40,689 nt of DNA from Salisapilia sapeloensis. Its lineage: Eukaryota > Oomycota > Peronosporomycetes > Peronosporales > Salisapiliaceae. The translations under genes and the position numbers were made by a program. Position 1 is the stretch's first letter, and the number at the start of each line of letters is the position of its first letter. The stretch spans positions 1 to 40,689 of the forward strand of contig JAADVB010000173.1 of assembly GCA_023334545.1 (NCBI GenBank). The letters run 5' to 3'. This document shows positions 9,169 through 40,100 of this stretch, in pieces. The notes beneath the pieces were generated by a model. That model did not search any database, was not told the origin of the DNA, and saw only the letters and a list, made by a program, of their open reading frames with translations.

Positions 9169-9687
9169 ATGACGGAGATGGAGGTCGAAGCGCAGGCGAA
9201 CCCCGGAACGAAGGACCGGTCAGCTGATCTAAGCAAATGGAAACTATATAATGAAGCGCTCATCCATTCTGTTTCATGCTCGAACCGTGAGTGTGGTGCG
9301 TACGGAGGGCGATGCGTCAAAGTCCGCCAACTTCGACAGCATTTCGCCCAGTGTTACAGCAAGCGTCGGGCGATATCGGCACTGGATAGCTGTCCACTAT
9401 GCGCTCAGTTCTGGCAGTTGCTACAGTTCCACGCTCGTACATGTCAACAAGGCAATGGGTGCCAAGTACCACAGTGTAATTCTCTGCGGGAGAAGCTGGC
9501 GCAGCGGAAGCAAGAGGATCAACAAGAGTTGGAGCGAGCTCGAGTACAGTTGCAGAGGCAGATAGAAGAACTATCCGTGGAGAATCGAATCGCAAAGGTC
9601 GAACGGGATAGGCAAGAGGTGCTGCAAATGATCGCGCAGATCCAGGAAAAGAGACAGGAGCAAGCAACCATGATGTCCATGGGCTAA
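9169..9687 (+). CDS. TAZ zinc-finger / coiled-coil protein, copy 2 (intronless)
   Basis: This single-exon frame encodes 172 residues. A TAZ zinc-finger domain spans about residues 28-108 with three complete HCCC zinc sites: H33-C37-C42-C49, H58-C62-C75-C78 and H88-C92-C98-C103. A coiled coil rich in Glu, Gln and Arg follows (about 108-160), and the protein ends MMSMG. The paralogue at 3219-3804 has the same plan but carries an intron inside the second zinc cluster. In CBP/p300 the TAZ domains dock transcription-factor activation domains. Here there is no acetyltransferase, KIX or bromodomain, so the protein is more like a free-standing adaptor that may dimerise through the coiled coil. The first ATG of the frame is used. 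Gene duplication with the copies about 6 kb apart, now separated by pseudogene and transposon debris, is evident. Confidence 0.88.
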   Translation: MTEMEVEAQANPGTKDRSADLSKWKLYNEALIHSVSCSNRECGAYGGRCVKVRQLRQHFAQCYSKRRAISALDSCPLCAQFWQLLQFHARTCQQGNGCQVPQCNSLREKLAQRKQEDQQELERARVQLQRQIEELSVENRIAKVERDRQEVLQMIAQIQEKRQEQATMMSMG

Positions 9688-10987: not shown

Positions 10988-13900
10988 ATGCCGGCGAATC
11001 CAGGCGGGACGCGAAAAGAGCGCTTGATGCGTGCTAAGATGAAGAAGAAGATCCAGGAGGAGGCATCCGATCCGACTGCATCAAGTGCTGCGCTCACGTA
11101 TGACGATATCTTGCAAATGTCCGACCTGTCGGAGAATTCGCTCTTGGAAAACTTGCGCAGGAGATACGAAAACGATATGATCTACACGTACGTAGGTCCG
11201 ATCCTCATTGCGATTAACCCGTATCAGGGCATGCCAAAGCTCTATAGCGAGCGGCGGATGACCGAGTACTACGGTCGAGAGATCGGATCCTTACCTCCAC
11301 ATGTATTCGCACTCGCTGACTTTGCCTACCGTCAGCTCATCCAAGGCGGTGCAGTCGATCCACAGAACCAGTCGATCATCATTAGTGGCGAGTCCGGTGC
11401 AGGAAAGACCGAGACGACAAAGATCATTATGCAGTACTTGGCACGCGCCACGAGCTACAAGCGTCCTCCAACCGCGAATGGCGTCGAGCCAGACCATGAG
11501 CCGATCAACGGCGACGCACCCATGTCCGGGACTCTAGGCAAGCTAGAAGAGCGTGTGCTCGAGTCGAATCCGTTGTTGGAATCCTTTGGTAACGCCAAGA
11601 CGCTACGTAATGACAATAGTAGTCGATTTGGTAAATTTATCGAGATCCAATTCAACCATCACGGCAAGATCGTCGGTGCGGAGATCATGAACTTCTTACT
11701 GGAGAAGACGCGCATCGTGTCGCAAAGCATTGGTGAACGGAACTACCATATCTTTTACCAGCTACTGGAAGGAGCAGACGATGAATTGAAAACTCGATTG
11801 CGACTCCAGACGGTGCATGACTATGAGTACTTACGTCATAGCGAGTGCTTTACGATCCCAGGATGTGACGACGTCGAGGACTTTGCCACGACAAAAAAGT
11901 GTATGGAGACGATTGGTCTTGACGCTGGTAAGCAAGAGAACGTGTTTGAACTTCTTGCGGCGGTTCTGCATTTGGGTAATTTGCGTGTGGAACAAGAGAA
12001 TGAGACGGCGAAGCTTGCAGATGAAGAGTCGGAGCAGAGCATCATGTTCGTCGCGGAGCTGCTGCAAGTGTCTGGAGACGCGCTTCGGAAAGCCTTGTTG
12101 ACACGACAGTTACATGTTGGTGGGAAAGTGATTGAGCAGCAGCAGAATGTGGATCAAGTGGTGGATAAGCGAGATGCATTAGCGAAAGGCATGTACTCTT
12201 CGTTATTCATCTGGCTCGTGCAAGAGTTGAATCGTACGATCTCTCGGCCTCGTGACAAGTGGGGATTCATCGGTGTCTTGGACATTTACGGCTTTGAAAA
12301 GTTTGACTGGAATACGTTCGAGCAGTTGTGTATCAACTATGCGAACGAAAAGCTCCAGCGACACTTTAACCAGCACATGCTCGAGGTGGAGCAAGAAGAG
12401 TATGAGAAGGAAGGAATCGACTGGACACACATTGACTTCCAGGACAATCAGCCATGTCTAGATTTGATTGAAAGCAAGTCGCTGGGGAAGCCTGGCATCT
12501 TCATTACGCTCGATGACATTTGGCGATGGAAAGGAGATGAAGCGAATAAGAAGTTTGTCAGTATCTTGCACGCGAACTTTGGGAAAGACACGAGCAAAGG
12601 TCCAGCGAATGCCAAATCGCAGCATCCGTTCTACATCCAACCAAACGTTGATGCAGACTTGACGTTCGGGATTAAGCACTACGCTGGAGAAGTCCTGTAC
12701 GACGCAAGTGGTTTCAACGACAAGAACAATGAGAACTTGAATGACGACATGAAAGACATTGTACGCGATAGTAAGAATCCGTGGATCCGAGACATCTTTT
12801 CACTCAACGTCCAGTCGCTTCAGGCCATTCCTGGTGGTGGAGCTAAGCGTCCGACGGATAATGCGTCTCGAAGACCTTCGGAGAAAGGGATGAACCGTCG
12901 GGCGTCGGACGTGAAAGGCGGAAATAAGGGTGGACGCAACCTTCGAGAAGTGTCTGTCGGAGCACAATTTCGTTTCCAGTTGCAAGAGCTCATGGGTAAG
13001 ATCAGTGCGGCGAACCCTCGATACGTTCGTTGTCTTAAGCCGAATGAGTTCAAGCGTCCTGGTGAGCTGAATGATGACGACTGTGCTCGACAGCTCAAGT
13101 ACTCTGGTATGATGGAAGCAATTCAGATCCGTCAGCAAGGGTTTGCTTTGCGGGAAGACCATGACGTGTTCTTCTATGACTATCAAGGTCTAGCTCCGTC
13201 AGCCGAAGTCATTGATGATCTCGTCAAAGTGATTTCATCAACTCTTGGCGCAGGAAAAGAGCAGTGGCAACTTGGTAAGACGAAAGTCTTCCTACGACGT
13301 GAATTCGCATTTAAATTGCAAAAGCTCGACCAGTTCCGAAGTAAAGGTGCTGCGAGGCGTATCCAGCGATGGGTTCGGTACCTCCGGATGAAGAACCAAG
13401 TCATTGTTGCTCAATCGGTCGTCCGCCGGTACATTGCACGCAGAAAGTTGAAGACGTTAAAGGCTGCTGCGAGACGAATCGTAAGTATTTTACGTGTTAA
13501 AGTTGCTGTGAGCAAGTTTGAAGCTCTGCGCTTTGAACATCGATACAAGTCGCAGCATGCGATTGTAATCCAAAGGATTGCACGGGGCTACTTAGTTCGT
13601 AAGCAGCAGCTATTAGATCCATTCGGTGGTTTAAATGCAAAGGATTTGGACGCGAAGATTAAGGAACTGGAGGCTGCAATCGCCAAGGCGGCGGAAGATA
13701 AACAGTTTGAGCTTTGCTCCAAGCTCCAAGTGGACTTGGAACCTGTCGTGAATGCACGCAAGAAAGTTCGTACGGCTAAGGAACTAGATAATGAGATTGT
13801 TCGCTTGAACAAGGCGGTGGATGAAGCTGCGGGGAGTAAGCAGTATGCCAAGTGTGCAGAGCTTCAGAAGGAGTTGGAAGAAGTGCAGGAACAGCGGAAG

Positions 13901-16900
13901 CATGTGAAGGAAGACTTGACCGAGTTGACGGCATCAGAACTGGATGAACGGATTGCACAGATGGAAGGACTGGTGAAGGAAGCTATGGATGCTCGGAACT
14001 TTGAAAAATGTGGACAGCTGCAACATGATTTAGATCAACTCGTTGCGATTCGAAAGACGAAGCAGAGTGCAGAGGAGATGGATGACGAGATTGAAGCTGT
14101 TAATCAACAGCTTGCGAATGCCATGAAGGAAAAGAACTTTGGCAAGTGTGCGCAGTTGCAAAAGGAGCTGGATGATAAGAAGAGTAAGCGATGGGAACAG
14201 TATCCTGATACGCCAGTTAAGGAGAAGCTACCGGAGAGAGAGGGACCAGTGCCGACGGCACCTACGACATCTCCTGCTGCATTGCAAGGGAAGGATGCGC
14301 CGAAGCCGACGCCGAAGAAGACGCCACCGCAGAAGGCTACAGCGCAAAAGACACCTGCAGCGCAGAAAAGTCCTGTGCAGAAGACTCCTGCGGCACAGAA
14401 GAGTCCGGTGGCGAAACCGACTGCACCTGTGCGTCCAGCGAATGGAAACCGAGTGAAGGCGAGTGTCCAGGCTCCGGCCGTGTCTCCTCCGCAAGTGGCG
14501 AGAGGACGCAAGAGCGTCGACAGTATCAGTGGCATCGGTCGTCCTCGATCCGACTCGAACGGATCGGCTGTATCGGCGTCGTCGCATGCTCGATCTACCA
14601 TCTCTATGCGCTCTACTGTCTCCAAGACGCAGCGCAAGGGAGAAGACGCATCGCGTACAGTGTCTCGCTTACGTCCGGCCAAGGCGTTGACGATGGGAGA
14701 GGACGTGACGGTCGCTGAAGCTGCTCGCGAGATGAAGAAGAAGCGAACTTCGGCGGTGCTTGCGACGAACGCCCAGGGAGCCTTGACTGGAATTCTAACA
14801 GACACCGATACGGCACGTCGTGTCATCTCCCAAGGCCTCGATCCAGATGATACGCTGCTTAGGGACGTCATGACAGGCAACCCGAGCTGCGTGTCGCTTG
14901 AAGACAGTGCGATTGAGGCACTGGACTTGATGCTCAGTGGCAAATTCCGACACTTGCCGGTGGTTAGTCATGACAATGGAAACGTTGTCGGTGTCTTGAA
15001 CGTCGCCAAGTGTCTCCATGACGCCATTCGTCGATTGGAAAAGGTCACGTCGTCTCTACAGGAAGAGCTCGAGAACTCTCCTCTGCGCAGTATGCTGGAA
15101 AAAGTACTTGCACCGACACTACGTGACGTTTTATCCAAGTCGGATGAACCTGAGACGCCAGTCGTGTCTCCAGAAGACACAGTCGCAGACGTGACGCTGC
15201 TAATGGCCAAGGATAAGAAACCAGCGCTTGTTGTGTCGGAGATGGGAGAATTAGTCGGTATCTTTACACCCAAGGATCTCCTCCATCGTGTCATTGCAGC
15301 AGGATTAAGCGTCGATGATACGCTCGTGGAAGAAGTCATGACAGAGCATCCAGAGTCTGCTTCTCCCGACACGACTGTCCTCGATGCTTTCCACATTATG
15401 CACGACGGCAAGTTCCTCAATTTGCCAGTGGTTGACCAAGAGACTGGTGAGATCTTCGGCATTGCAGATGTCCTCTCTCTATCCTCGTCTGCTTCCCTAG
15501 AGCAAGGAGAGTCTGGACAGCTCTGGAGCGCAGCGTTAGAGTTACCGACACAAGGAAAGGATGTCTTCGATGACACGGCGTCCATGTCGTCCTTTACCAG
15601 TCGAGCTCGACAGCGTAAGGAGAAGGAGAAACCTTCTCGAGCTGTCTCGAGCTTACGTCCGACGGCTGCAGTGACTGTATCCTCCCAAGGCTCTGTCGTC
15701 GATGCAGCTGTGCTCATGAAGCAAAAGCATACGGACGCGGTGCTTGTAGTGGACGATTCGAGTGGTCTACTCGTTGGTATTCTTACAGATACAGACGTGT
15801 GTCGTCGTGTGCTTGCGAAGGACCTGGATCCGGAAGCTACGACCGTCGCGGATGTCATGACAGGTGACATTCAGTACGTTGCGCCGGAAGACAGTGCCAT
15901 CGATGCGCTGTTGACGATGCAAGACGGACACTTTCGACATTTGCCGGTCGTGGAGAGAGACAGTGGGACCATCGCAGGTGTGTTGAACATTGGCAAGTGT
16001 CTTTATGATGTATCAAAGCGTCTGGAGCATGCATCCGAGTCGACGGAGCAGATGAAAGCGTCACTCGAGTCCCAAGGCAGTGCCGTCCAAAAGGTACTTG
16101 GTCCTATGCTCCAGCGCATGGCGGATCCGACCATCGATTCGATCCTCCAAGCTCAACGGAAGAAGGGAGATGCCGGCGCTCCGACCGTCACGCGCAACAT
16201 GACAGTGTCTCAAGTCGCGAAGCTCATGGGAGAAAGCAAACAAGCAGCTCTTGTCATTGAGAATGAAGTGACAAACCGACTTATCGGTGTCTTCTCTCCT
16301 TATGAACTAGCGATGAAAGTGATTGCGCAGGGTATGGACCCAGAGACGACACTTCTTCAAGAAGTCATGCTCACAGACCCGGATGTCGCGACACCTCAGA
16401 CGCAGGTGGTGGAAGCGCTGCAGATTATGCATGAGACTCAATGCCTGAACCTTCCTGTCGTCCAGGATGAAGGCAGCAGTCGTGTCGTTGGTCTTGTCGA
16501 CGTCCTGGCGTTGAGCTACGGTACGATCGATGCGTTGTACGGTCAGAACCGAGAGCAGATGGAAGAGTTCTGGAGCGCAGCGTTGACGCTAGAGCAACCT
16601 TCCCAGCCTGGTGGCAAGGCGACGCACAAGCGTACACTAGCAAAGGTCGCGGATAAGGAGAAGAGCCGGACGGTGGAACAGCTGCGTCCGTCCAAGGTGC
16701 TGACGATTGAAGAGCACGCGACTGTTGATGAGCTGAGTGTCATGATGGGTCGTAGTCGATCTGATTGTGTCCTTGTGGTGTCGGACGATGGAATGCTCGT
16801 GGGTATCGTCACCGACACGGACTTGGCGCGTCGTGCCGTGGCGCAGAATCTACCGACGGATATCACGACGGTCGGGCAGGTGATGACCAAGGACCCGGCG

Positions 16901-19900
16901 TTCGTATCGACTGCCGACCCGGCCATTGACGCGCTCTTCCGGATGCTTGAAGGCAAGTTCCGACACTTGCCTGTGGTCGAGACACCAGAGAACGGCGGAG
17001 GTGTCGTGGGTATCCTCAAGATCGACCGCTGTCTATACGATGCAATTCGGAAGATGGAAAAGATGGAGGCATCGACGTCTCAAATGCGCCAGACGCTCGG
17101 AAAGCGAGGCAACTTGTCAACGCTGCTAGGTCCGATGGTCGATCGCATGTTCTCTCCGAACGTCCAGACGATTGTGAATGGAGACACAGCGGCACCGCGT
17201 GTCCAGCCTTATACGAGTGTGTTGGAAGTCTCGCGGCAGATGGCGAGTACAAAGAAAGCAGCACTTGTCGTGAGCAATCGTGGACAGTTCTTTGGTGTCT
17301 TTACACCGCAGGATCTCGTGGACAAAGTTTTGTCGAAAGGACTGCCGGTGCACACGACACCTGTGTGTGAAGTCATGACGGAACCGACGCAAGCCCTCGT
17401 GTACGCTGAGAACACGGTGTTGGATGCGCTGCATGTGATGCACGACCAACGATCTCTCTACCTTCCAGTCCTCCAGTCGGAGCAGTCGCCTACAGCGGTT
17501 GGTCTCGTGGACGTGCTGTCGCTAAGCTTTGGATCGTTCGCCAAGGGCGATCCGAGTGACTGGCGTGAGTTCTGGAACACGTCGTTCGAAGCTGCGGGCG
17601 ATGATGACGAGACGTCTTCGCACCATAGTCTCCAGAGCTCTTTCTCCATGAGTCGTGTGACGGGGAATAAGGAGCCTCGTAAGGTCCAGACCGTCACGGG
17701 AGACGCTCGACCTGTGTCGAAGCTGCGTCCGAGTAAAGCTGTGACGATCTCGGAGAGTGCGACAGTTGCGGATGCAGCAGCCGAGATGGGCAAGACCCAC
17801 ACAGACGCTGCACTCGTGATTTCGAGCGACGGAATGCTCAAGGGTATCTTGACCGACACAGACGTGACGCGTCGTGTCGTTGCGCTCGGGAACGATCCGA
17901 ACTTTGTGAGCGTAAGTGCTTGCATGACACCGAATCCGAAGTTTGTGAATGAAAAGGATAGTGCCATGGATGCCATGTTCACTATGCTGGATGGTAAATT
18001 CCGACACTTGCCTGTTGTCGATACGCAAGGTCTTGTCGCCGGTATGCTTCGTATTCAAAAGTGTCTCTATGACTCGATTACGCGTTTAGAAAAAGCACAA
18101 AAGACATCTAGTAGCTCTTTACGAGAGAATCTAGAGAAACAGCTCATGTCGTCTGGATTCGGACAAGGCCTCGGGAAAGGACAAGGCGCTTTGGATGAAC
18201 TCGTGACGCCGATGATTGAGAAACTCTTGTCGCCGACGTTGGATACGCTAGTCAGTCGAGAGGATATGCCGCCGCTTGTCCATCCTACGGTCACGGTCAT
18301 GGAAGCTGCAAGGCAGATGGCATCTACGAGGAAAGCTGCGTTGGTCGTAGAGGACTTGGAGCTCGATGGAGACCTCGACCGACGCTGGAGTAACGCTAGC
18401 TCTGCTACTGGCAAAAGACTCACTGGTGTGTTTACACCTAAAGACCTTCTTCTTCGAGTCGTTGGAGCCGGACTGGACCCTGCCATGACGCTTGTCAAGG
18501 ACGTGATGACGTCTAATCCCGAGACCGTGGCGCCTAGCACGTCGCTTGTGGATGCACTGCATATTATGTACGAGCATACGTTCCTGCACTTGCCAGTAGT
18601 AGAAGACGGATCGAGCACGATCATGGGCTGTGTCGACGTGCTGTCGCTTTGCTACGGCACCTTTGCCACTGGCGCAACGGAAGGTGGAGGCGACTGGCGC
18701 GCCTTTTGGGATATGTCCCTCGCACTTACCAAGGACGATGATGAGCGCAGTAGTGTCAGTCGCAGTGTCGCTGGGTCTCGACGTCCGGCTGCTAGTAAAC
18801 GCGGAGGTCGATCACGCAGTCACACGGCGTCGTCTGCTGGTAGTCAGAAGAAGGAGGAAGTGAATCGCCCAGTGTCCAAGCTCCGGCCGAGACGTGTCAC
18901 GCAGATCGACGAGTACTTGACTGTCTCGGAAGCTGCGAAACGTATGCGAAAGGCACGTGCGGATGCTGTCGTGATCACAAATGAAGACGGGGAGCTACAT
19001 GGTATCCTAACCGATACGGACATCACGCGACGTGTACTTGCACGGAACTTGGATCCGGATGTGACAGATGTATCTGCAATCATGACGGTGCATCCGAGCT
19101 GCGTACGTAGTGATGAGCAGGCGATTGAAGCTGTCACGAAGATGCTGGAAGGACGCTTTAACCATTTGCCAGTGACGTCGCCGGAAGGTGTCATCCAAGG
19201 CATGCTGGACATTACCAAGTGTCTCTACGATGCGATCAACGGGATGGAAAAGGTGCAACAGAGTACTGAGGCAGCTGCATCGGAGCTGTCGAGAGACTTG
19301 GGGCCGAACGCTTCGAGCTTGAACAAGTTGCTTGGACCGATGATGGATAAGATGGTGCGTCCGACTGTCGGCACAGCGTTGGAAGGAGAGAAGATGCCTC
19401 CGATTGTGGATCCTCAGACGTCTGTGAGTGAAGCTGCGATGCTCATGGCAGAGACGAAGAAGGGCGCCGTGGTACTGGATGACGGAGAGCTCGTGGGTAT
19501 CGTGACACCCAAGGATTTGCTCCGCAAGCTTGTTGCGAAGGGTCTGACTGCAGACGAGACGGCTGTGGAGGAGGTCATGTCCGTCGACCCAGAGTACGTC
19601 TGTCCGGACGCTCGTATCCTCGACGCTTTGCGACTGATCCATGACTCTGGTCAGCTCTTCGTTCCGGTGCTGCATGAACAGAGTAGGCAGGTGATTGGCA
19701 TGGTAGACGTGCTTTGTCTTAGCTATGGTCAGTTCGCTTCATCTTCTGGTAGCTCTGGTGGAGACTGGCGCCAATTCTGGCAGACAGCGATGCATGCGCA
19801 GGATGAAGCGCAAGGCATGTTTGATCATGATGATACAGTGTCGGTTGGTACGATTGAAGAGTTTGAACGGAGCGAGATGCAGCATGAGATTGGATACGCT

Positions 19901-20563
19901 CGTGCGCCATCTCAGACCGGATACTCGGAGCTTGGCGAAAGTGTGTCTGTTGTTAGTGGCGCGCAGTCGATGGCAACGACAGCCATGGCTGCACAGATGC
20001 GTGACGACCAGTTCATCTTCAAGGTGAGTGATCGAGCGACGGGGAGTTACCATCGTCTGATGAGCCGCTTTGACTCGCTCGATACGCTTGTGAAGCAAGT
20101 TCGAGCCAAGGTGAGTGCCACGGCTGACGATGAAGTTCGACTTAAGTACGAGGATGATGATGGCGACCTCGCTCTCTTGACGACGGACGAGAGTTTGATT
20201 GAAGCTGTTCAAATGGCCAAGAACGCTGGGTGGAAACGCATTGTTCTCTTGGTCGACATTGTCAAGTCTGGTGAAGACGACAAGCAGTCGAAAGGCAAGG
20301 GTAAGAGCAAACGTAATCGGAAGCTTACGGCTGTGGAGGAAGATGCAGATGAGAGTTCGAGCTCGGAAGACGAGAGTTCGGATGAAGAGGACCGAAAGCG
20401 ACGGAAGAAGAAAGGAAAGAAAAAGGGCGGGAATCGCAGTAGTTGGGGTGAAATGTGGGGCCGAGGGTCGTTTGGTGACAAAAAGTCGCTCTTGATCGCC
20501 GGTAGCTCGGTGCTGGTTGGCATCGGGTCGATGGCAGCGATGTTCATGCGAAAGAAGAATTAA
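10988..20563 (+). CDS. Giant myosin-CBS-PB1 fusion protein with C-terminal tail anchor
   Basis: One uninterrupted 3191-codon frame. The myosin motor fills residues about 38-775, without an N-terminal SH3-like domain. Its P-loop is GESGAGKT (134-141), switch I NDNSSRFG (208-215) and switch II DIYGFE (432-437), so ATPase activity is expected. Three or four IQ motifs follow (about 788-878), such as IVIQRIARGYLVRKQ. Four helical repeats resembling UVR motifs come next (about 885-1073), each with a K.F..C..LQ..L core. A Pro/Lys/Ala-rich linker (about 1085-1160) and a Ser-rich linker lead to five tandem modules of two CBS pairs each, starting near 1225, 1553, 1896, 2243 and 2629. A PB1 domain (about 3006-3093), an acidic-then-basic stretch and a hydrophobic segment (3167-3186, ending RKKN) close the protein. 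CBS pairs usually bind adenine nucleotides; PB1 mediates protein pairing. The tail resembles a C-terminal membrane anchor. I infer an organelle-attached actin motor with nucleotide-responsive regulation. Confidence 0.95.
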   Translation: MPANPGGTRKERLMRAKMKKKIQEEASDPTASSAALTYDDILQMSDLSENSLLENLRRRYENDMIYTYVGPILIAINPYQGMPKLYSERRMTEYYGREIGSLPPHVFALADFAYRQLIQGGAVDPQNQSIIISGESGAGKTETTKIIMQYLARATSYKRPPTANGVEPDHEPINGDAPMSGTLGKLEERVLESNPLLESFGNAKTLRNDNSSRFGKFIEIQFNHHGKIVGAEIMNFLLEKTRIVSQSIGERNYHIFYQLLEGADDELKTRLRLQTVHDYEYLRHSECFTIPGCDDVEDFATTKKCMETIGLDAGKQENVFELLAAVLHLGNLRVEQENETAKLADEESEQSIMFVAELLQVSGDALRKALLTRQLHVGGKVIEQQQNVDQVVDKRDALAKGMYSSLFIWLVQELNRTISRPRDKWGFIGVLDIYGFEKFDWNTFEQLCINYANEKLQRHFNQHMLEVEQEEYEKEGIDWTHIDFQDNQPCLDLIESKSLGKPGIFITLDDIWRWKGDEANKKFVSILHANFGKDTSKGPANAKSQHPFYIQPNVDADLTFGIKHYAGEVLYDASGFNDKNNENLNDDMKDIVRDSKNPWIRDIFSLNVQSLQAIPGGGAKRPTDNASRRPSEKGMNRRASDVKGGNKGGRNLREVSVGAQFRFQLQELMGKISAANPRYVRCLKPNEFKRPGELNDDDCARQLKYSGMMEAIQIRQQGFALREDHDVFFYDYQGLAPSAEVIDDLVKVISSTLGAGKEQWQLGKTKVFLRREFAFKLQKLDQFRSKGAARRIQRWVRYLRMKNQVIVAQSVVRRYIARRKLKTLKAAARRIVSILRVKVAVSKFEALRFEHRYKSQHAIVIQRIARGYLVRKQQLLDPFGGLNAKDLDAKIKELEAAIAKAAEDKQFELCSKLQVDLEPVVNARKKVRTAKELDNEIVRLNKAVDEAAGSKQYAKCAELQKELEEVQEQRKHVKEDLTELTASELDERIAQMEGLVKEAMDARNFEKCGQLQHDLDQLVAIRKTKQSAEEMDDEIEAVNQQLANAMKEKNFGKCAQLQKELDDKKSKRWEQYPDTPVKEKLPEREGPVPTAPTTSPAALQGKDAPKPTPKKTPPQKATAQKTPAAQKSPVQKTPAAQKSPVAKPTAPVRPANGNRVKASVQAPAVSPPQVARGRKSVDSISGIGRPRSDSNGSAVSASSHARSTISMRSTVSKTQRKGEDASRTVSRLRPAKALTMGEDVTVAEAAREMKKKRTSAVLATNAQGALTGILTDTDTARRVISQGLDPDDTLLRDVMTGNPSCVSLEDSAIEALDLMLSGKFRHLPVVSHDNGNVVGVLNVAKCLHDAIRRLEKVTSSLQEELENSPLRSMLEKVLAPTLRDVLSKSDEPETPVVSPEDTVADVTLLMAKDKKPALVVSEMGELVGIFTPKDLLHRVIAAGLSVDDTLVEEVMTEHPESASPDTTVLDAFHIMHDGKFLNLPVVDQETGEIFGIADVLSLSSSASLEQGESGQLWSAALELPTQGKDVFDDTASMSSFTSRARQRKEKEKPSRAVSSLRPTAAVTVSSQGSVVDAAVLMKQKHTDAVLVVDDSSGLLVGILTDTDVCRRVLAKDLDPEATTVADVMTGDIQYVAPEDSAIDALLTMQDGHFRHLPVVERDSGTIAGVLNIGKCLYDVSKRLEHASESTEQMKASLESQGSAVQKVLGPMLQRMADPTIDSILQAQRKKGDAGAPTVTRNMTVSQVAKLMGESKQAALVIENEVTNRLIGVFSPYELAMKVIAQGMDPETTLLQEVMLTDPDVATPQTQVVEALQIMHETQCLNLPVVQDEGSSRVVGLVDVLALSYGTIDALYGQNREQMEEFWSAALTLEQPSQPGGKATHKRTLAKVADKEKSRTVEQLRPSKVLTIEEHATVDELSVMMGRSRSDCVLVVSDDGMLVGIVTDTDLARRAVAQNLPTDITTVGQVMTKDPAFVSTADPAIDALFRMLEGKFRHLPVVETPENGGGVVGILKIDRCLYDAIRKMEKMEASTSQMRQTLGKRGNLSTLLGPMVDRMFSPNVQTIVNGDTAAPRVQPYTSVLEVSRQMASTKKAALVVSNRGQFFGVFTPQDLVDKVLSKGLPVHTTPVCEVMTEPTQALVYAENTVLDALHVMHDQRSLYLPVLQSEQSPTAVGLVDVLSLSFGSFAKGDPSDWREFWNTSFEAAGDDDETSSHHSLQSSFSMSRVTGNKEPRKVQTVTGDARPVSKLRPSKAVTISESATVADAAAEMGKTHTDAALVISSDGMLKGILTDTDVTRRVVALGNDPNFVSVSACMTPNPKFVNEKDSAMDAMFTMLDGKFRHLPVVDTQGLVAGMLRIQKCLYDSITRLEKAQKTSSSSLRENLEKQLMSSGFGQGLGKGQGALDELVTPMIEKLLSPTLDTLVSREDMPPLVHPTVTVMEAARQMASTRKAALVVEDLELDGDLDRRWSNASSATGKRLTGVFTPKDLLLRVVGAGLDPAMTLVKDVMTSNPETVAPSTSLVDALHIMYEHTFLHLPVVEDGSSTIMGCVDVLSLCYGTFATGATEGGGDWRAFWDMSLALTKDDDERSSVSRSVAGSRRPAASKRGGRSRSHTASSAGSQKKEEVNRPVSKLRPRRVTQIDEYLTVSEAAKRMRKARADAVVITNEDGELHGILTDTDITRRVLARNLDPDVTDVSAIMTVHPSCVRSDEQAIEAVTKMLEGRFNHLPVTSPEGVIQGMLDITKCLYDAINGMEKVQQSTEAAASELSRDLGPNASSLNKLLGPMMDKMVRPTVGTALEGEKMPPIVDPQTSVSEAAMLMAETKKGAVVLDDGELVGIVTPKDLLRKLVAKGLTADETAVEEVMSVDPEYVCPDARILDALRLIHDSGQLFVPVLHEQSRQVIGMVDVLCLSYGQFASSSGSSGGDWRQFWQTAMHAQDEAQGMFDHDDTVSVGTIEEFERSEMQHEIGYARAPSQTGYSELGESVSVVSGAQSMATTAMAAQMRDDQFIFKVSDRATGSYHRLMSRFDSLDTLVKQVRAKVSATADDEVRLKYEDDDGDLALLTTDESLIEAVQMAKNAGWKRIVLLVDIVKSGEDDKQSKGKGKSKRNRKLTAVEEDADESSSSEDESSDEEDRKRRKKKGKKKGGNRSSWGEMWGRGSFGDKKSLLIAGSSVLVGIGSMAAMFMRKKN
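14660..19800 (+). repeat. Five tandem CBS-CBS coding modules (about 1 kb each)
   Basis: Within the myosin gene a unit of about 330-385 codons is repeated five times, beginning near 14660, 15644, 16673, 17714 and 18872. Each unit opens with a [V][S/E]xLRP motif. It contains a first CBS pair with the signatures GILTDTD...RRV and KFRHLPVV, a bridging helix, and a second pair with GVFTPKDL-type and LPVV...VDVLSLS signatures. It ends with a linker carrying FW (for example DWREFW, DWRAFW, DWRQFW). Units are clearly diverged, so the amplification is old. Unit 4 is longer because of a roughly 20-residue insertion in its second pair. Confidence 0.92.
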
Positions 20564-21768: not shown

Positions 21769-24325
21769 CTACCGAACGACCTCTTCCATCGACACACTTC
21801 GTTCACAATTCGCCACCTCCGTAGTACACTTACTACTGGACGAAGATGACGAGACAGATTTGGAAGACGAGGGCGAAGTGTCTTCTTCCAGTCGAGTCAT
21901 CGGATCAAAGTACGATTGAAGGATCTCAAAGTTCGAGGCGATTGTGCCACCCAAAAAACCACCCACGGAGCCAGATGCACCCAGATTCTGTCGGCTTGAA
22001 TCGCTCTTCGGCACTGGCGTTACACTTACAAGCACCCCGTCATCTTCCTCGCCATCCTGTTCATGCACAAACATGCCTTTCGAGTCGTCTGTAAAGACCT
22101 GATTTTCCAATGCCGAACGCAGCTTTGCGCTCTCTTCCCTCAACGTCTCGAGCTCAGACTCTAGGTTCGAGTTGTACTCCACTTGAGACGCCAGCTTCTG
22201 TGTTGCTGACTGGAGCTGGTCTTGCAATTGCCTCTGATTCACCTGCACTTCTTTTGCCCATGCATCCTATCGTCACATAGGTAAATATATTATTACTCCG
22301 TGGACATGCCTATAATACGAACTTGAGATACCCGAGAATCGTTGGATTCGAGAGATCGAAGGTAAAAGGTCGTCCAGATCGCGAGAAAGCTCGTGTGCCA
22401 CTTGTACTGAAGAACGCGAGGAGATCGATCGGACCCATTGTCGTCGTCCACTGGCAGTATGAAGAACGGATTGTAGAACTCTGCTGCCTGTGGATGAGCA
22501 CGTAGTAGTGTCCAAGCTGTTAGACACCTCGAATGCACTTTGGCATGCACCCGAGCCTGTTCACAATCGTAGAGGAACGTCGCGCTCTGTTTCGCGTACA
22601 CTTCATCCAACAAAGCAATGAGGAAGCGTTCATTGAACTCAAACGAACAAGGAAATTGACGCATGAGCTGCCACACGGCGTCTATAAACTGCATAAAGAC
22701 AGGAGATGATCGTTCATCTTCCCAATATGCACCGTTCTCATCCGTCAGTCCTGACCGTGATCGGAATTGATATCCGAACGCAAGCCACTCCTGCTCCACT
22801 AGTACTTGGAACCCTTTTAACGTTCGATAGTAAGGATCTAAACAGAGTTTCGTCAACGCAACGATCTGTGCTGTTCGGTCCCACCCGTCAGAGCAATGGA
22901 TAACAAGACTAGACTGTTCCTCCGCTACTTTCGACACACAATTGGAGCTCGCGACAAGGACGCTCCGAACGTGTTCCAGCCATCGCGTGCTTTCGAGACA
23001 TGACCACCATTTGGCACGTTCTTGCCCTCGGACTTCGTACTTGACAAGATCAAAGAGCTTACGTAAGGAGTCACGCATTGAATGGATGTTTTCAATGCCC
23101 ATGAACATCATACTAGTGTTTTTATAATAGTCAAGAGATTCAAATCCGCCACCAAGTGCAACGTTGCCATAGGCACTCGTCTGGCTACGACAATCGACGA
23201 ACACGAGTTTCCCCGTAGCAGAACGAAGCGCTTTAATCAGTGCTTCATCTTGCGTACATCGACGACGACGGATACCGACGAGCGGTTGGGCACATCGAGC
23301 GATGATGGCATTGTTGATGTGGCGATATGTAACGGCTGGGACGCGTCCTCTCGCCCGAAACTGTGCGATTTTACGCAACTCGCCATCGTTGACGGCCGTC
23401 GGGACGACGATGGAGCTTGGGTAGGTAGAGCAGAGTCTGTAGTGTTCATTGGCAGAAGAAAGGCGGAAGCCACCGAGAGATGTGGAGCTGTTACGGAGGT
23501 TGAGTCGAGCAAATTCTGCTTGGGCGTCAAAGAGCGACCAACCGTCCACGTCTGGTAACTGCTGCGACTGTGGGAAGACGAAAGCAGTTTCAGGCTGAGA
23601 CGTGTGGAGGATCTGATTGACTTGGACGTACACTTCACTATGGAGACTTTTAGCACGAAATAGGTGCTTCATGACGGTGAGGACGTACCTTGATGCAGAT
23701 TCGGACGGGAAGTTAAATCTGATAATTTCAAAGTTTTTGCACGAGACTTCCAGTTGTGATTGGATCGAGAGAGAGCCATCTCCAGACGTAGATATGGAAG
23801 GAGTGATTTCGGCCATTTCGGCGATGGCATGTAAATTAATGCTCACGAGTTCCTGTACTTGTTCATTCTCTTCTCCTTTCTACAGCTTCTTCAGCGATAT
23901 GACTCACTAACCATTACGACAGTTTTACGTACATGAAAGGAGAGGAAGAGTAGACGTTGGGATGTGAGGAAGAGCGTGCCGTGGTGAGAAGCACGAGGGG
24001 CGGCCGAGACACCAACTAATCCTGTCGTCGACTTATCGCACAATGCGTATGCCTTGAAGTGGACACTCTCCCCTGCGTAGAGGGAAGTCGTGGGGTCTTC
24101 CATGACCAAGTACATATTGTCCGAAATGTACGTCGTCTATTCCCATGCCACATTTGTTCTTTATCAGTCCAGACGTTCGGAACACGTATCTACCGAATGA
24201 CGAATATAGAAAGATCAAGCACGTACAGCCATATCGAGTTCTTGATGATCGACGGACGTCCAGGAGTCATCATCATACTTTCTCGACCAAGATCGCGTAC
24301 GGCTTTTCGCCATCGGCGTCGCCAT
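21769..24325 (-). CDS. Myotubularin-family phosphoinositide 3-phosphatase, 4 exons
   Basis: Exons 24325-24227, 24136-23933, 23879-22323 and 22266-21769 all join in phase 0 to give 785 residues. Introns are 90, 53 and 56 nt (GTACGT, GTACGT, GTTCGT). The N-terminal part is a PH-GRAM domain (about 50-190; GTLFLTSQRLLFLSFH then a strand with CKNFEIIRFNFP). The phosphatase domain contains the substrate-positioning ENIHSMRDSL and the active-site loop HCSDGWDRT, with catalytic Cys at about residue 430 and Arg at 436. Both are intact, so an active rather than dead family member is expected. It would remove the 3-phosphate from PI3P or PI(3,5)P2 on endosomal membranes. The last exon encodes a coiled coil (about 621-690) and a Ser-rich tail, as in MTMR dimers. 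The start ATG is the first of MATPMAKSR. It is 114 bp upstream of the STIMATE-like gene. Confidence 0.9.
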
Positions 24326-24503: not shown

Positions 24504-25484
24504 TTAGGCGCCAAACACAGCTTGGAGGGCTGGACGAACACGCACTTCCATGTTGTCGTCTTGCTCGCTTTGAGGAAGAGGAGGGATGACGTTGAAACTG
24601 CGCAGGATCTCTTCCTTGGCTTGTGAGAATGCGTTGAAGACAGTGTCATCGATGCACACGACACCGATTTTACCGGTCCATTGCGTCGCTCGGACACTAT
24701 TTTGCATCGTTCGGAGTCCGACATGTGCCGATGCAATTGCAGGCACGCCGAGACTACCAGTAGAAATGGATGTCATGGCTATGCACTCTAATTCTTCATC
24801 CATAGCTCTATTTACGATATTCGCATACGTATCACGTAGCAACTCGTAGCACTCTGGTCTCCAGATCGAAGGACCGATGCAATGTAGCAGACGTCGGACA
24901 CCAGCATTGAATCCAGGTGTGACGACGACATCACTCCTTTGCCGAGGTCGTCGATACTCTGGCTGTTTCAGGTACTCGACTAGCTCATAGCCAGCACGTC
25001 CGAAGACAGCTCCAGCGGAGCCGATTCGAGGGTTCATCAAATGAGATGCGGTCGGGAAGGCAATTCCGTCAATCGGCTGATCGTCAATGACTTGTATCTT
25101 TGCCAGGTTGCCTTTAATCACTTGAAAGGTCGCATTAAAGCAGGACCTTTCATCACCGGACCGGAGGAACTGATGCAATTCGTTGCAAATTCCAGCTTGA
25201 TCATAGCTCATCCAAGGCCGTGGCTGTTCAATATATGTCATGTGCTGTAAGTACTCTGGCAATGGTCCTCCAAAATGCTGTACGAGCTGGTCTTTCCAGA
25301 ACACGTGATCGAGTAGGATGGGATTGCGAGTGACGTGAAGAAAGACGAGTAGGCTGTCAATCGAGTCAAAGTCTAGGTACGACAGCACATTTCGGTTGAT
25401 CTCTTGGACTTGCAACAGGTCTAACAACGATCCCATCGTCTCGAACGTACTCGTACGCAGTCGTTTCGCTTGTGGCTCTGCCAT
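24504..25484 (-). CDS. F-box and macro-domain protein
   Basis: A single exon encodes 326 residues. Residues about 24-68 look like an F-box (INRNVLSYLDFDSIDSLL...FWKDQL). Residues about 120-290 form a macro (ADP-ribose-binding) domain: GN at 125-126, IDGIAFPTAS at 138-147 where the family has VDAIVNPAN, GSAGAVFGRAG at 155-165, the strand LLHCIGPSIW at 199-208, and ISTGSLGVP at 240-248. F-box proteins recruit targets to SCF ubiquitin ligases and macro domains read or erase ADP-ribose. A link from ADP-ribosylation to ubiquitination is therefore suggested, but it is inference. The NPAN motif is altered to FPTAS, which argues for binding or a changed ligand over MacroD-type hydrolysis. It is divergent from NAA10 with 194 bp between starts and in tandem with the myotubularin gene. 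Confidence 0.82.
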   Translation of the reverse strand: MAEPQAKRLRTSTFETMGSLLDLLQVQEINRNVLSYLDFDSIDSLLVFLHVTRNPILLDHVFWKDQLVQHFGGPLPEYLQHMTYIEQPRPWMSYDQAGICNELHQFLRSGDERSCFNATFQVIKGNLAKIQVIDDQPIDGIAFPTASHLMNPRIGSAGAVFGRAGYELVEYLKQPEYRRPRQRSDVVVTPGFNAGVRRLLHCIGPSIWRPECYELLRDTYANIVNRAMDEELECIAMTSISTGSLGVPAIASAHVGLRTMQNSVRATQWTGKIGVVCIDDTVFNAFSQAKEEILRSFNVIPPLPQSEQDDNMEVRVRPALQAVFGA

Positions 25485-26580: not shown

Positions 26581-28188
26581 CTACTTGGACAAGAGACTCG
26601 CTCGATCGACGTCATCAATGAGCGTCTGCCGGACGGGAAAGTCGAGCATCGGCATGCTGTCCTGTCGACTGCGACCGGTTTCATCTACTAGAATGACGTC
26701 ATCCACTTCATCTTCTTCTGCCTCATCCTCCTCCATCAACACGTTGGCGCTGTCTCGAGTTAGAACGTCCATGAGCGATGGATTGAAGCGCATGCGAGGG
26801 GAATCACCGTCGAAAAAGTCGGATTCTTCGCTGTCCGTATCGAACTCGTCACTATTTGTAGACGGACGCTGGGTCGTTGGGCCGACGTCACTGTGCATCG
26901 AGTGACTCGCATCATCTCCGTCTGAACCACGACTGGTAGCTAATTGACAGGCGTTAGTTTCTTCAGCATGGTTCGAGGTGAAGAAAAAGTTACCATTGCC
27001 GTCTATACCTTCGTCGCTATGAGCTCGACTACTGTAGCGTGCAGAGAAGACAGAGGATTCGCTAGCTTGGAGGATACTCAAGTACTTTTGATCTGTCCGT
27101 CGACTTGCTCGTTGGGTAGGACGAGAGGATGCGTATGAATTACGCGTGCTTTCATCTTCTGTTGTCGCCGTGTCCTCTTCTATGGCTTGTGCATTTTCAC
27201 TATCGTTACTCGTTCGTTCCTCTGTCAAGTCCTTACAAGGTCCGGTCTCTTTCTCTGCTGGTACCTCACTCTCTATCGAAGCTTTCGAGTCGACATAGGA
27301 GTCGACAGACAGATTGACAACGGACGGAGGCGGCTCTTCATCTATACTGTAGGCCACAGTGGGCTCCTCGTCTGTCTGTTCATTCGGTTGATTCACTTTG
27401 GACCGACTGAGTCGACTATCTACTTTTGCCTGCCTAGCTTTATACTCCTTTTGAGATAAGGAGAGCATCCGCATCTGCAGTCGTAATTTCCCTGCTGATT
27501 TTTTACCAGCCTTGAGCTCCACCCACTTATCTACGCTTAAATCATCCAAATCTCGTAACGATATGGCACAGGCACCAATGGCCGGTGTCGTCATTAGCCT
27601 CGCGCTCTTCACGCGTATCGATAGAATTTCATTTGCAGGGTCTGATACCGGTATCTCGAACTTTTCATTCCACATCGGATTCCGCTTTCCTGGTGGCTGT
27701 GTCCCTGTCTTTCGAATATGGTATCGAGAGCCATTACGATGTGCGTCGTTGGGTAGATGCACTTCACCTGATGCTGCTTTCGTGTCCGGCACAGGTTCTA
27801 ATAACAGCATTTGCTTGAGGGAAGAACGACTGCCACGGGTCATGTCATGATCCGTTACGTAAATCTTACAGTACGTGCCGTGGGAACTGACATGCCTGAG
27901 GTTTTCTGCGGAATGGATGCGAAGTAGGAGCCGATACTTCATCGCGTCACTCGACCGACGTCGCGATGGCGAGTCCATACTCGCGCGTGGCGTGGATCGA
28001 AAGCTAAAGTAGTCTCGAAAGGACGAGGTGGTATCTACGGGGAGGTTCTGCACAGGGGAGGTTTCCGGAAGGGAAGACGCGCTCTCTGTGGCACTAGTAG
28101 ACGCTGTCGGCTTGCTACCCGCTTTCGAGACGCAGCACAAGAATGACATGAAGGCCTTTCCGCTGCGTCTAATATTTCGGAACTGCAT
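26581..28188 (-). CDS. C2-domain protein A with long acidic/Ser-rich tail
   Basis: A single exon encodes 535 residues. An N-terminal basic stretch with two cysteines (SFLCCVSK, possible lipidation) and a Ser/Thr-rich linker precede a C2 domain at about 84-242. Its core strands are YRLLLRIHSAENL, GTYCKIYVTD, PMWNEKFEIPV (171-181), ILSIRVKSARLMTTPAIG and WVELKAG...GKLRLQMRML. The aspartates that bind calcium in loop 1 of classical C2 domains are missing (SSHGTY in place of D.nG.sDPY), so calcium-independent membrane or protein binding is likely. The remaining 290 residues are disordered, rich in Ser, Glu and Asp. Two homologues with the same C2 layout lie at 32324-34030 and 34073-34789. The exact function is unknown; the family seems oomycete-specific to my knowledge. 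Confidence 0.8.
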   Translation of the reverse strand: MQFRNIRRSGKAFMSFLCCVSKAGSKPTASTSATESASSLPETSPVQNLPVDTTSSFRDYFSFRSTPRASMDSPSRRRSSDAMKYRLLLRIHSAENLRHVSSHGTYCKIYVTDHDMTRGSRSSLKQMLLLEPVPDTKAASGEVHLPNDAHRNGSRYHIRKTGTQPPGKRNPMWNEKFEIPVSDPANEILSIRVKSARLMTTPAIGACAISLRDLDDLSVDKWVELKAGKKSAGKLRLQMRMLSLSQKEYKARQAKVDSRLSRSKVNQPNEQTDEEPTVAYSIDEEPPPSVVNLSVDSYVDSKASIESEVPAEKETGPCKDLTEERTSNDSENAQAIEEDTATTEDESTRNSYASSRPTQRASRRTDQKYLSILQASESSVFSARYSSRAHSDEGIDGNGNFFFTSNHAEETNACQLATSRGSDGDDASHSMHSDVGPTTQRPSTNSDEFDTDSEESDFFDGDSPRMRFNPSLMDVLTRDSANVLMEEDEAEEDEVDDVILVDETGRSRQDSMPMLDFPVRQTLIDDVDRASLLSK

Positions 28189-32323: not shown

Positions 32324-34030
32324 ATGTATACGACCTCTCCTCATCAAGGTCGCGGATCGACCTACAACCAACGGACGTCCGTCTCGCAGCCGAGCTTCCA
32401 CTTATACGTTCGTGTCCACAGCGCTTTTGGGCTTAAAATCTCATCTCAAGGCGCGTATGCGAAAGTGTACTTAGCCGACGGTAGCATGGCCATGGGCAGT
32501 CGAGCTGCCGTCTCTGCCGACCCGCACGCACGTGCGCCAAGCTACACGTTCCACACGCGCGTCGCGCCACCGAGCCGGGACCCTCGACGAGCATCTCCGA
32601 TATGGAACGAAAAGTTCCAAATGGCTCTACCATCCGACCGTCCGTTCGATCAAGTCTTGACGATTCGTGTGAAAAACCAGCACTTGCTCTACTGTCCGAC
32701 GATTGGCACGTGCTCAGTCTATATACGTGAATGGACTATTGGCGAGCTAGGCGAAAAATGGGTCCCGCTCACGGATAAACACGGACGAAAGGTCGGACAA
32801 TTACGTTTACAATATCTATTGGAGCGCTCGGAAAATATGCAAACGCCAAATATGCCGACGCCAAAGCCTTCGTACATGTCGACACCGACGACCCCGAATA
32901 TGCCGACGGGAGGACGTCGTTCGAGTGTCCAAGCCAGTCCGTCTGGAGCGCCACCAGGAGAGTACTATGGTGCAATCGACTACACACCGTCCAAACCGAC
33001 GTACACAAGTACGTATGATAGTTCCTGGTCTGGCGTCAGTGGTCGCAAGTGGAATAAACCTCAGGGCGACTCTTATCGACAAGACACGGGGGAAAACTGG
33101 AGTCAAGAGCAAGCTCTTGCAGAACATTTCGCCAGTACAAAGCAGCATTCAGGAGATGATCTATCCCAGTACCTGGCAACAGCATCCTTTGGTATTAATT
33201 CGAACAGCTCCGGTTCAAGGGATGGTCGAGCCAGATCTGTCGCGCCATCCAGCACGTATAAGAAGTATCCAGGTCCTTCCGTACGACGGAAGACGACATC
33301 ACACGCCTCGAGTGATGAGAGGAGTACGCCGTCTTATTCACCTACGAGTGACGATCATGAATACACGCGTCGAAGCTTAGCAGGCGCAGTGGACGCAGAC
33401 GTCTCGAACGTCATGATCGACAATCTCCCGTCATCAGACGAGGAGAGCGACTCGGACGAAGAAGCCGCTGCGTGGCTACGACGGCGAAACGAAAGTTTAC
33501 AGGCAAGACAGAAGGGTTCTCGTCAGGAAACGAATGTGTCTGGTCTGACGTCTCCTTCGATCTCCGTCTCGTCAGAAGATCGAGTCGGAAGTGGACGGTC
33601 GCAAGAGTATAATGTACCGCCACCAGCATATGAACGCGTCAAGAACGAGGCGTTGGCACAGAGCCATTTCTTTGGCGAATACAATCCACCGTCTCCTCAG
33701 CCATCTCAAAGGAGTGATGGGTCTCTTGCCTTTCGCATGTCGAAAGGAACGGACCTGGCAGCCACGGCACCTGTGCGAGCTGAGAGCACGGATGACGTTC
33801 GTCGGACGAGAAACTCGACCGCGTCGTCAGATAGTTCGCGAGGTCTCTCATTATCGTCGAGTGACTATGGGGACAAGTTGTCAGGCGATGAGTATGCGGA
33901 GGCAGAGGTGATTGAGACTGCACGAGAGATGGACGGACTGAAGGTGGATGAGAGGGATATTGATGCCGAGGTCGGAAAGCATGGGCATGACTGGTGGCCT
34001 CATTCGAATGGGAAAGAGGTGACGTTGTAA
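32324..34030 (+). CDS. C2-domain protein B with long Ser-rich tail
   Basis: A single exon encodes 568 residues. A short N-terminus (about 23 residues, Ser/Thr/Gln-rich) leads into a C2 domain at about 24-167: FHLYVRVHSAFGL, GAYAKVYLADG, SPIWNEKFQMALP (91-103), VLTIRVKNQHLLYCPTIGTC and WVPLTDKHGRKVGQLRLQYLL. As in C2 protein A, the loop 1 calcium aspartates are replaced (SSQGAY). A Pro/Thr/Met-rich repeat follows (NMPTPKPSYMSTPTTPNMPT, about 175-195). The rest is a disordered Ser/Arg tail with an acidic cluster SDEESDSDEEAA and a conserved-looking C-terminal acidic helix. It probably acts as a membrane- or lipid-associated scaffold; this is inferred from the C2 fold only. The gene is convergent with C2 gene C, whose stop is only 43 bp away. 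Confidence 0.82.
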   Translation: MYTTSPHQGRGSTYNQRTSVSQPSFHLYVRVHSAFGLKISSQGAYAKVYLADGSMAMGSRAAVSADPHARAPSYTFHTRVAPPSRDPRRASPIWNEKFQMALPSDRPFDQVLTIRVKNQHLLYCPTIGTCSVYIREWTIGELGEKWVPLTDKHGRKVGQLRLQYLLERSENMQTPNMPTPKPSYMSTPTTPNMPTGGRRSSVQASPSGAPPGEYYGAIDYTPSKPTYTSTYDSSWSGVSGRKWNKPQGDSYRQDTGENWSQEQALAEHFASTKQHSGDDLSQYLATASFGINSNSSGSRDGRARSVAPSSTYKKYPGPSVRRKTTSHASSDERSTPSYSPTSDDHEYTRRSLAGAVDADVSNVMIDNLPSSDEESDSDEEAAAWLRRRNESLQARQKGSRQETNVSGLTSPSISVSSEDRVGSGRSQEYNVPPPAYERVKNEALAQSHFFGEYNPPSPQPSQRSDGSLAFRMSKGTDLAATAPVRAESTDDVRRTRNSTASSDSSRGLSLSSSDYGDKLSGDEYAEAEVIETAREMDGLKVDERDIDAEVGKHGHDWWPHSNGKEVTL

Positions 34031-37163: not shown

Positions 37164-40100
37164 TTAGAAGGATCCACTGCTTTCCGCCAGACTACGTTAT
37201 CAATAAATTAGCGTTGACGAGACTCAAGCTATCAAGTTCTCGTAGTATACATACCTTGATTCGGCAAATGATCCCCCAGATAGTTCCTGTGCATCATCCG
37301 AATCTGCAAAAGATTGATCGTCTTGTGTCTGAAACTCTGCTTCAAATCGCTCTTTCTCTTCTTTCTCTCGCTGTTGCTGCGCTTCTACCTCTGCTAAACG
37401 CTGTTTTTCTGCAGCTTTTCTCTCGAGAACACGCTGACGATATGCAGCCATGACGTCTTCATCCTCTTTCTTCTTAGCCTCCTCCTCATTCTGCCTCGTT
37501 TCTGCTTCGAGCTCTTCCGGAGTTTTGGTACTGATCACTTCAGGACTATATTCTGTTGCTGTTAGAACCTCCTCCGCCGGAAGACTAGTGTCAACCACAG
37601 TATCTGAGGCTTTGTTTTCGGCGATAGCTTCGTCTTCGTCACTGCCCGGTATATCGATTGCTTCCGAGCTACTAGGGGCATCAAACACGGATTCGTCTGG
37701 ACTCTTCTCTTGTGCATCTGGCTTATAACCATGGTCATCGACATCCTCCATGCTATTCACCTTTCCTGATCTTTCATTCTCGATTTGAGCGATGCCAGTC
37801 TCTTCGTCTTTGTTCACTTCGTCATTTACTAGTATTTCTTGAACAATAGATTCTACTTGTTGCTGCTCATCTTGCGCAATGCGCTTTTCATAATTGTTTT
37901 CCTCGTCTGCAGACACCATGAATCGATCTTCCTTGCTTTGAGTAGACTCTAAATCTTGTGCCTTTTCACTCTCAACTTCTTTATCAACGCTCACGTCAAC
38001 GGAGGCATGCACTTGATCAACATCAATATTTGGGTTCTGGACATTACTTTTAGCAGTGCTATCATCCACTTTGCTTGTAGTATCCTCGGGTCCTCGGGGC
38101 TTTGTAGAAATGTCTTCAATTGGATTATTGTTGTCCTTGTGCCCATTAATAACCTCCTTTTTCTCACTGTCACGGATTGCATAAAGAAGCTCAGACTTTG
38201 GATCAAGGATAGATGGCTCAGTGACTGCATTTACATCATCTTTGCGTTTGCTATCAACCAGTTTCATTTCTGTTGAGTTTACAATGTGGTCTTTACCACA
38301 TGGCATTGGAGCTTTCTGCGTGACGATATTTAGCGATTGTCTGCTTTCTAAATTACTTGGTTCTTGCGAAACAGGTATTTTAGCTTCATTTCTAACAACA
38401 TGGTCTGCAGCACGTTTTTCCTGCTTTTCGTCGAACAATTTTATCTCTTGATGATTTTGTTCTTGCACTCTAATGTCTTCATGTCGTCGGCACTCCATAT
38501 CTTTATCCACATTCCGCCTTTCACCATTGTACACCTGATATTCGCGCCTCTCTCGAGCCTGTCGATCGTCTTCTTCACACCGATAGTAGGGTATTTCTTG
38601 AGAGTACTGCATGGGTTGATTTGGATAATGACGCTCTTCATACCTCATGACAGGTCGGTAATCTCGACCAAAAGTCCCCATCATCTCCATCATTTTAAGC
38701 AACAATGTTCTCTCAGATACGCTGTCGCTTCTGTCACTTGTATGTCGTCGATGACTTGACGGACGATCTCGCCACTCACCAAATTTTGCATGAATCGATG
38801 ACTGTGCTTGCGATAATAGCGTCGTTAAACTAGCAACTTCCTGCTGAAGTGACTTAACACGAACATGCTCGTCTTCATATTGACTACGATATCGCTCCAT
38901 AGAAGCTTCACTCGCCGTTGCACGGTCCTGCGCATCTCTCCATTTGAAATACAGCTCTTCTTCCTTATCACGAAATTGCTTCCGTTCATCCTCTACAAGC
39001 TGTATTAGGCGTTTTCTTTCTGCTACAACTGCATTCCCTTCTGCCATCTTCAAAGCCACAATTTCGTCTTGCAACGACTGTATTTGAGCACTAGATGATT
39101 GAGTTTGCTTTGAACGATCACTGCTTTCGTTCATAAGTCGATCTACCTCTTCTTTCAATCGCGCATTCTCTGACTGAAAGTGTGCAACTTCGACCTTCAG
39201 GTCATAAACTAATTGCTGCTCCGTTTCGATTTGACACTTTTTGTCGTGTACTTCATCTTCCAAGCGAGCTTTCTCTTGAGATACTTGGGATGCACGTAGT
39301 TGTGCATCACGATAGTTACTTTCTGCCTCTAGCAACGTCGCTTCGAGCTTTTCCCATTCGGATTGAAGATGCTTCCATCGCTCTGTCTGTCGTTTTAACG
39401 CCTCTCTCTCTGCACTAACTTCAGCTTCTCTGTTGGTCAACTCTACGTCCCGATTATCCACGTCTTTCAATAGTTTTTCCCGCTCCAACTGCCACTCCTG
39501 TTCTTTTACTTTAACATTCTTGTCAATCATCGCTTGTATGTTATGCTCCTGTGTGTCTAGACGTGCTTCCCATAACTCCATCCGCTTTCTTTCATTCTCA
39601 AAATGCTTACTATCAGCTTCGTCTTTCTTCCGCAATTCATCCTCTTTCTTTCGACAAGTCTCCATCTCCTGAAATAACGATTGTCTAGTACTAAATAGCG
39701 ACGACTCGACATCTGCATGCTTCTTCTGGTAACATCGATCCAGCTCTCGTTCTCGATCTTGTAGCTGAACTACTTTACTCTGATGCTCCTTAAGTAAGGA
39801 AGTTCGATACTCTTCTATTTCATGTTCTACTTTCTTACGTTCTTCTCTCCGGACGCTTTCGATTTCTACATTACGAAACCTTTGGAGCTCTGACTGTATC
39901 ATTTGCTTCGCTTGTGCATCACATTCTTGTTGGTATTGAAGCATCCTCTCTTCGATCGAGAGTGTTGGACGCTGATTGTCTATCGATGTTTTACTCAAGT
40001 AGATATTCTCGACTCGACGCAGTTGGTTCTCAAGTGCGAAACGATGGTCTCCTATATCTACGGATGTCTGTGTGCTCGATGTCATCGAATGGATGTTCAC

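Follow-up and report, generated by a model that had tools for sequence, protein, structure and literature searches.

Class XXIX myosins were reported in 2007 from all Stramenopiles sampled at that time, with long tails that carry three IQ motifs and short coiled coils, as many as 18 CBS domains, a PB1 domain and a C-terminal transmembrane domain (Odronitz and Kollmar, 2007; PMC2375034). Here, we analyze a stretch of 40,689 nucleotides from the oomycete Salisapilia sapeloensis (contig JAADVB010000173.1; 'the window' denotes this whole stretch), in which a preliminary description had noticed a myosin motor fused to an amplified CBSCBSPB-type tail, leaving undecided whether such an architecture had been described before. 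It had, having been published in 2007 as class XXIX. The window gene is almost certainly an oomycete class XXIX ('myosin 29') myosin, and because Odronitz and Kollmar (2007) describe the architecture and some database relatives are named myosin 29, it belongs to a kind already known and is one more oomycete genome's copy. The class assignment is based on the published description and on a clade shared with CBS-tailed myosins rather than on published reference sequences.

A search with the tail listed 72 relatives from 2410 candidates scored, among them proteins labelled myosin 29 from Plasmopara halstedii, Albugo laibachii and Tribonema minus. Proteins P0001–P0033 are referred to as the oomycete set (the window protein, 27 named oomycete proteins and five that both rank and group with them), and P0034–P0072, minus the Albugo-type paralogues P0039 and P0040 and with P0056 included, as the 37 other relatives. 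A literature search for 'class XXIX' or 'myosin 29' returned nothing relevant; the literature search, which reached few subscription journals, found no functional study of the class, nor did a search of the literature find a paper treating a CBSCBSPB protein as tail-anchored. By word search, CBS and PB1 do not occur in the main texts of PMC5583752 and PMC3942036.

We propose that the gene encodes a class XXIX actin motor or tether that is anchored by its tail and engages under the control of adenylates, a statement to which, taken as a whole, we assign a probability of about 0.5. The architecture, family, conservation and predicted fold within it are read from the following features and from their relatives.

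10988..20563, forward strand: class XXIX myosin gene, a single exon of 3191 codons (open reading frame, Pfam and codon bias)
11102..13297, forward strand: myosin motor domain, residues 39-770, with P-loop at 134, switch I at 208 and switch II at 432
12125..12127, forward strand: TEDS-rule position, Lys380 (motor alignment; position taken as 16 residues before DALAK)
13361..13600, forward strand: neck with three loose IQ motifs at residues 792, 808 and 861 (pattern matches; Pfam IQ barely over cut-off on the neck alone)
13640..14200, forward strand: predicted UVR-like array made up of four helical hairpins, residues 885-1071 (AlphaFold2 model; UVR in relative P0201)
14261..14650, forward strand: Pro/Lys-rich low-complexity linker from the neck to the CBS modules (the sequence itself)
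14651..15562, forward strand: module M1, four CBS, T-x-x-D in CBS1 and CBS3
15635..16585, forward strand: module M2, four CBS and FW, CBS3 motif altered to SPYE
16664..17587, forward strand: module M3, four CBS and FW
17705..18721, forward strand: module M4, four CBS and FW
18863..19792, forward strand: module M5, four CBS and FW, a predicted AMPK-gamma-like disc
20009..20257, forward strand: PB1, in which the Lys conserved across the family lies close to the start and an acidic stretch reads YEDDDGD (Pfam and model; start placed where the model shows its first PB1 strand)
20483..20560, forward strand: C-terminal tail anchor with a basic end (RKKN)

The frame runs from ATG to stop over 3191 amino acids with zero internal stops, for which the chance is about 10^-66 given the base composition here. 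Searches with the whole protein matched Pfam Myosin_head at residues 39-770 (E 3e-223), CBS (E 1.5e-142, with 18 stretches significant) and PB1 at residues 3029-3090 (E 3e-9), giving from N- to C-terminus a motor, weak IQ motifs, a neck of helical hairpins, five repeats that together hold 20 CBS motifs, a single PB1 and a tail anchor. The single intact exon, the intact P-loop and both switches, the one PB1 and the hydrophobic membrane anchor of the preliminary description are thus all borne out, as are the CBS profile matches whose absence it had named as fatal to its proposal. Two adjacent genes read as one would be an artefact capable of producing such an arrangement. Some database models agree with a split: P0005 and P0009 (2/33 of the oomycete set) lack a motor match and begin 10-12 residues before M1, 10/37 other relatives likewise lack one, and the model of a further protein, P0208, comprises a motor and pieces of one module. 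We take the two oomycete models to be annotation splits, because their closest relatives have full models. Moreover, codon bias, referenced to the motor, is maintained through the junction between the neck/IQ region and the CBS modules to the end of the tail, the true frame scoring above both shifted frames in 16/16 blocks of 150 codons and in the final short block. Motor and modules lie in one model in 31/33 of the oomycete set, the window protein included (among these, roughly the first third of the motor is missing from P0002, P0003 and P0006, and most of the motor from P0010), and P0057, whose MMETSP label we take to mean that it is RNA-derived, covers a motor and three modules as well as an anchor and a stretch that looks PB1-like by eye. 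On the open frame, the continuous codon bias and the 31/33 joint models we reject the two-gene reading as highly improbable, though some database models come without a motor.

The five repeats span residues 1222-2935. Regularly spaced G-h-h ends divide them into five modules of four, in agreement with the 20 CBS motifs first counted, 18 of which Pfam shows. An FW motif closes M2-M5 and M1 carries LW at the equivalent place. After split profile matches had been merged, five modules were found in 33/33 of the oomycete set (the first is partial in P0022 and P0023), and the 37 other relatives have five in 5, four in 14, three in 14, two in 3 and one in 1, the last labelled partial. The ribose-binding T/S-x-x-D motif of CBS1 is retained in 163/164 oomycete modules.

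A structural model of the four-CBS module has AMPK gamma and its archaeal homologue MJ1225 among its best fold matches, and the module is accordingly predicted to adopt an AMPK-gamma-like fold. Adenylate control, which the preliminary description had suggested, is plausible on this modelled fold and on the conserved ribose-type motifs. Instead of the AMP/ATP ratio, the modules may sense a protein partner or a different ligand (S-adenosylmethionine, Mg-ATP, NADH or a dinucleotide): PMC6429129 describes varied adenosyl ligands for CBS domains, and ATP-, ADP- and NADH-bound structures are also among the fold matches. AMPK gamma and MJ1225 rank among the best of those matches, although fold alone is not decisive, and we regard sensing of this other kind as unlikely.

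Plant CBSCBSPB3 and fungal CBS-PB1 proteins match the region comprising M5, PB1 and the anchor at E values of about 1e-67 to 1e-50, which upholds the proposed fusion of a myosin with a CBSCBSPB-type protein. A hydrophobic stretch at the C-terminus that ends in basic residues is conserved in 33/33 of the oomycete set and 32/37 other relatives, and an anchor is present in 98/105 standalone proteins (plant, fungal and further ones); these standalone motif and anchor counts exclude probable pieces of fused tails (P0075-P0083, P0091, P0111, P0117, P0141 and P0144).

At the motor, the TEDS position was taken to lie 16 residues before DALAK. The residue is Lys in 30/33 proteins of the oomycete set, Lys380 of the window protein included, and is absent from the remaining three. 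As judged from the alignment, 20 other myosins of the same genome have E in 9, D in 6, S in 3, T in 1 and K in one locus, L028. Lys at this site means a motor without the usual acidic or phosphorylatable residue there, and its conservation fits control from the tail. The 19.5 Mb assembly holds at least 20 further myosin heads. L028 itself (G000:C400:22096-24219) is a very divergent myosin-like motor in which both the P-loop (GTMGSGKS) and switch II (DPIGME) are altered, and is perhaps not an ATPase.

The neck claims of the preliminary description stand in part. Three loose IQ matches are present and the Pfam IQ profile passes its cut-off on the neck alone (20.7 bits versus 20.3). Pfam UVR has no match in the window protein, whole or neck region, so that UVR is rejected as a formal domain call. 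What stood is a likeness: residues 885-1091 form eight helices, or four hairpins, in the AlphaFold2 model (predicted local distance difference test score 85), and upstream of the first module UVR scores 28.1 bits in relative P0201 (cut-off 21.5) and 17.9 bits, under the cut-off, in P0210. A fold search with the hairpin model gave no confident match and nothing under E 0.49.

The ligand, the membrane and the regulation are what we infer. The anchor would keep the protein attached to an organelle, on its cytosolic side. Tail anchors of moderate hydrophobicity with a basic end generally go to the mitochondrial outer membrane or the peroxisome rather than to the endoplasmic reticulum; because the anchor here is moderately hydrophobic with a basic end, the former two would be favored. 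PB1 may link copies of the protein, or a partner, head to tail, since its sequence has both basic and acidic conserved sites. The five four-CBS modules would be AMPK-gamma-like discs that offer up to nine [T/S]xxD sites to adenine nucleotides. Occupancy of these sites would change how stiff the long tail is or how it self-associates, and the state of the tail would decide whether the distant motor engages actin or parks. If adenylate binding were shown, the protein would be a motor of the cytoskeleton that carries its own energy gauge and ties the position of an organelle to ATP state with no kinase in between.

Several observations weigh against this proposal, as do the motor-less models mentioned above. 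The CBS3 motif is lost in M2 (0/33) and mostly in M3 (7/33), and in the CBS3 tally of the other relatives it is kept in just 65/127 modules. The motif residues could instead be retained for folding, and the shared modeled fold and motif do not establish the ligand. Lys at the TEDS position is not universal beyond oomycetes: of the 37 other relatives, 13 have K there, 7 have S, 2 have V, one has N and one E, and the residue is missing from 13. The IQ evidence is weak, with E 0.011 and a score under the cut-off on the whole protein. The anchor of P0031 is counted solely through a PF00137 (V-ATPase c-type) stretch that ends its gene model; the database model of P0031 with PF00137 is probably a merged one.

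The loss of the second motif from M2 and from most copies of M3 would also be expected if the CBS array were a passive spacer or scaffold that separates motor from membrane as a long rod, or as a valency platform, and whose copy number drifts without nucleotide sensing. The range of one to five modules in the 37 non-oomycete relatives points the same way, as do the nearly or fully identical copies in P0034 and P0055, as expected of a length-tunable repeat. Set against this are the constant five modules throughout the oomycete set and the near-complete retention of the CBS1 motif there, although modules of one protein are just 34-45% identical to each other in P0001, P0013 and P0029, the three for which this was measured. 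We consider a passive array doubtful, if somewhat less so than a different ligand, and continue with the adenylate-controlled tether.

The history of the modules was followed in two trees that concur in outline, a FastTree of 314 modules and an IQ-TREE of 75 modules from 23 proteins, rooted on five plant or fungal single-module proteins. P0039, P0040 and P0051 fall partly outside the main groups in FastTree and were omitted from IQ-TREE, together with three of the five near-identical P0034 modules. In IQ-TREE, the ochrophyte-type modules form one clade (100/98) and the modules of oomycetes and P0056 a second (98/91), the three P0056 modules falling among the oomycete ones on long branches. Oomycete M1-M5 each group by position, with 98/93 for M4 as the weakest support; M2 is nearest M4 (86/66) and M3 nearest M5 (87/80), pairings that hint at block duplication. 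Because oomycete modules sort by position and non-oomycete copies group largely by protein or lineage, both a separate multiplication in oomycetes and ochrophyte-type relatives and a homogenization after their split fit the trees. Approximately unbiased tests rejected grouping all first modules together (p 0.00095) and all last modules together (p 5.6e-58); they do not separate independent duplication from homogenization, because the constraints force apart near-identical within-protein copies. The later amplification of the CBS part proposed at the outset is therefore sustained by the module tree and refined: the FW linker was amplified along with the CBS motifs, PB1 and the anchor were not, and oomycetes and ochrophyte-type relatives each underwent their own amplification (or homogenization). 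Within-protein module identity of up to 100% in P0034 and of 100% between M1 and M2 in P0055 points to very recent duplication, homogenization or assembly repeats. The Albugo-type proteins P0039 and P0040 are a second, divergent five-module myosin with low scores for modules 1-3, the lowest of them for module 2 (44 and 37 bits), as though these modules were in decay.

The motor phylogeny called for by the preliminary description was run as a quick, unrooted tree of 42 motors, from which 16 underfilled fragments were dropped and in which the L028 row is very long. All of the 22 chosen CBS-tailed motors lie on one side of a branch, opposite the 20 other same-genome myosins (Shimodaira-Hasegawa-like approximate likelihood ratio test 99), which favors one fusion at the origin of CBS-tailed myosins. 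The same genome also carries a standalone CBSCBSPB-type gene, L038, on contig C418, with CBS, PB1 and its own anchor. Descent of the fused tail from L038 is not supported, its CBS3-4 half grouping on a long branch with plant and fungal proteins (99/88) and not with the fused modules. L038 (G000:C418:42500-46500; contig about 43405-45203) apparently has several exons, and its tail anchor ends in FLSRRR. We also looked for an ancestral form of class XXIX with one module, in a search that allowed proteins of that length and scored only the 7998 candidates sharing most words. Two proteins have a motor with one module or less, and neither is convincing: P0072, labelled partial, and P0208 (Pythium insidiosum, 1213 amino acids), a species in which P0009 has five modules.

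Put together, five serial AMPK-gamma-like adenylate sensors on an organelle-anchored myosin might give a graded or cooperative grip between organelle and actin controlled by energy charge, oomycetes and ochrophytes having multiplied the sensor separately after one fusion and the motor having given up TEDS control. We hold this fuller version tentatively, as less probable than the general proposal. With such module histories, copy number becomes a variable that can be put to the test.

Elsewhere in the window, open reading frames at 9169-9687 (+), 22293-23816 (-), 24504-25484 (-), 26581-28188 (-), 32324-34030 (+) and 37224-40400 (-) adjoin the myosin. Matches among these six include a myotubularin-type phosphatase, macro, C2 (two frames over cut-off), LisH and a TAZ zinc-finger, with no evident link to the myosin.

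Compared with AMPK gamma and MJ1225, the predicted four-CBS disc fold and a ribose-type motif are held in common; identity is 14-17% in the listed alignments, and the window protein has five serial modules on a motor and a putative ligand. We do not file it as AMPK gamma, a kinase heterotrimer subunit, though it possibly works like one. The CBSCBSPB/Mug70 proteins of plants and fungi have four CBS, FW, PB1 and an anchor homologous to the window tail, but are standalone, with one module and without a motor. With class XXIX as described in PMC2375034, the window protein shares the motor, many CBS, PB1, a C-terminal transmembrane segment and a stramenopile distribution. Where that text gives three IQ motifs and short coiled coils, the window protein has three loose IQ motifs and four modeled hairpins, and its 20 CBS in five modules, against up to 18 there, are no difference of kind.
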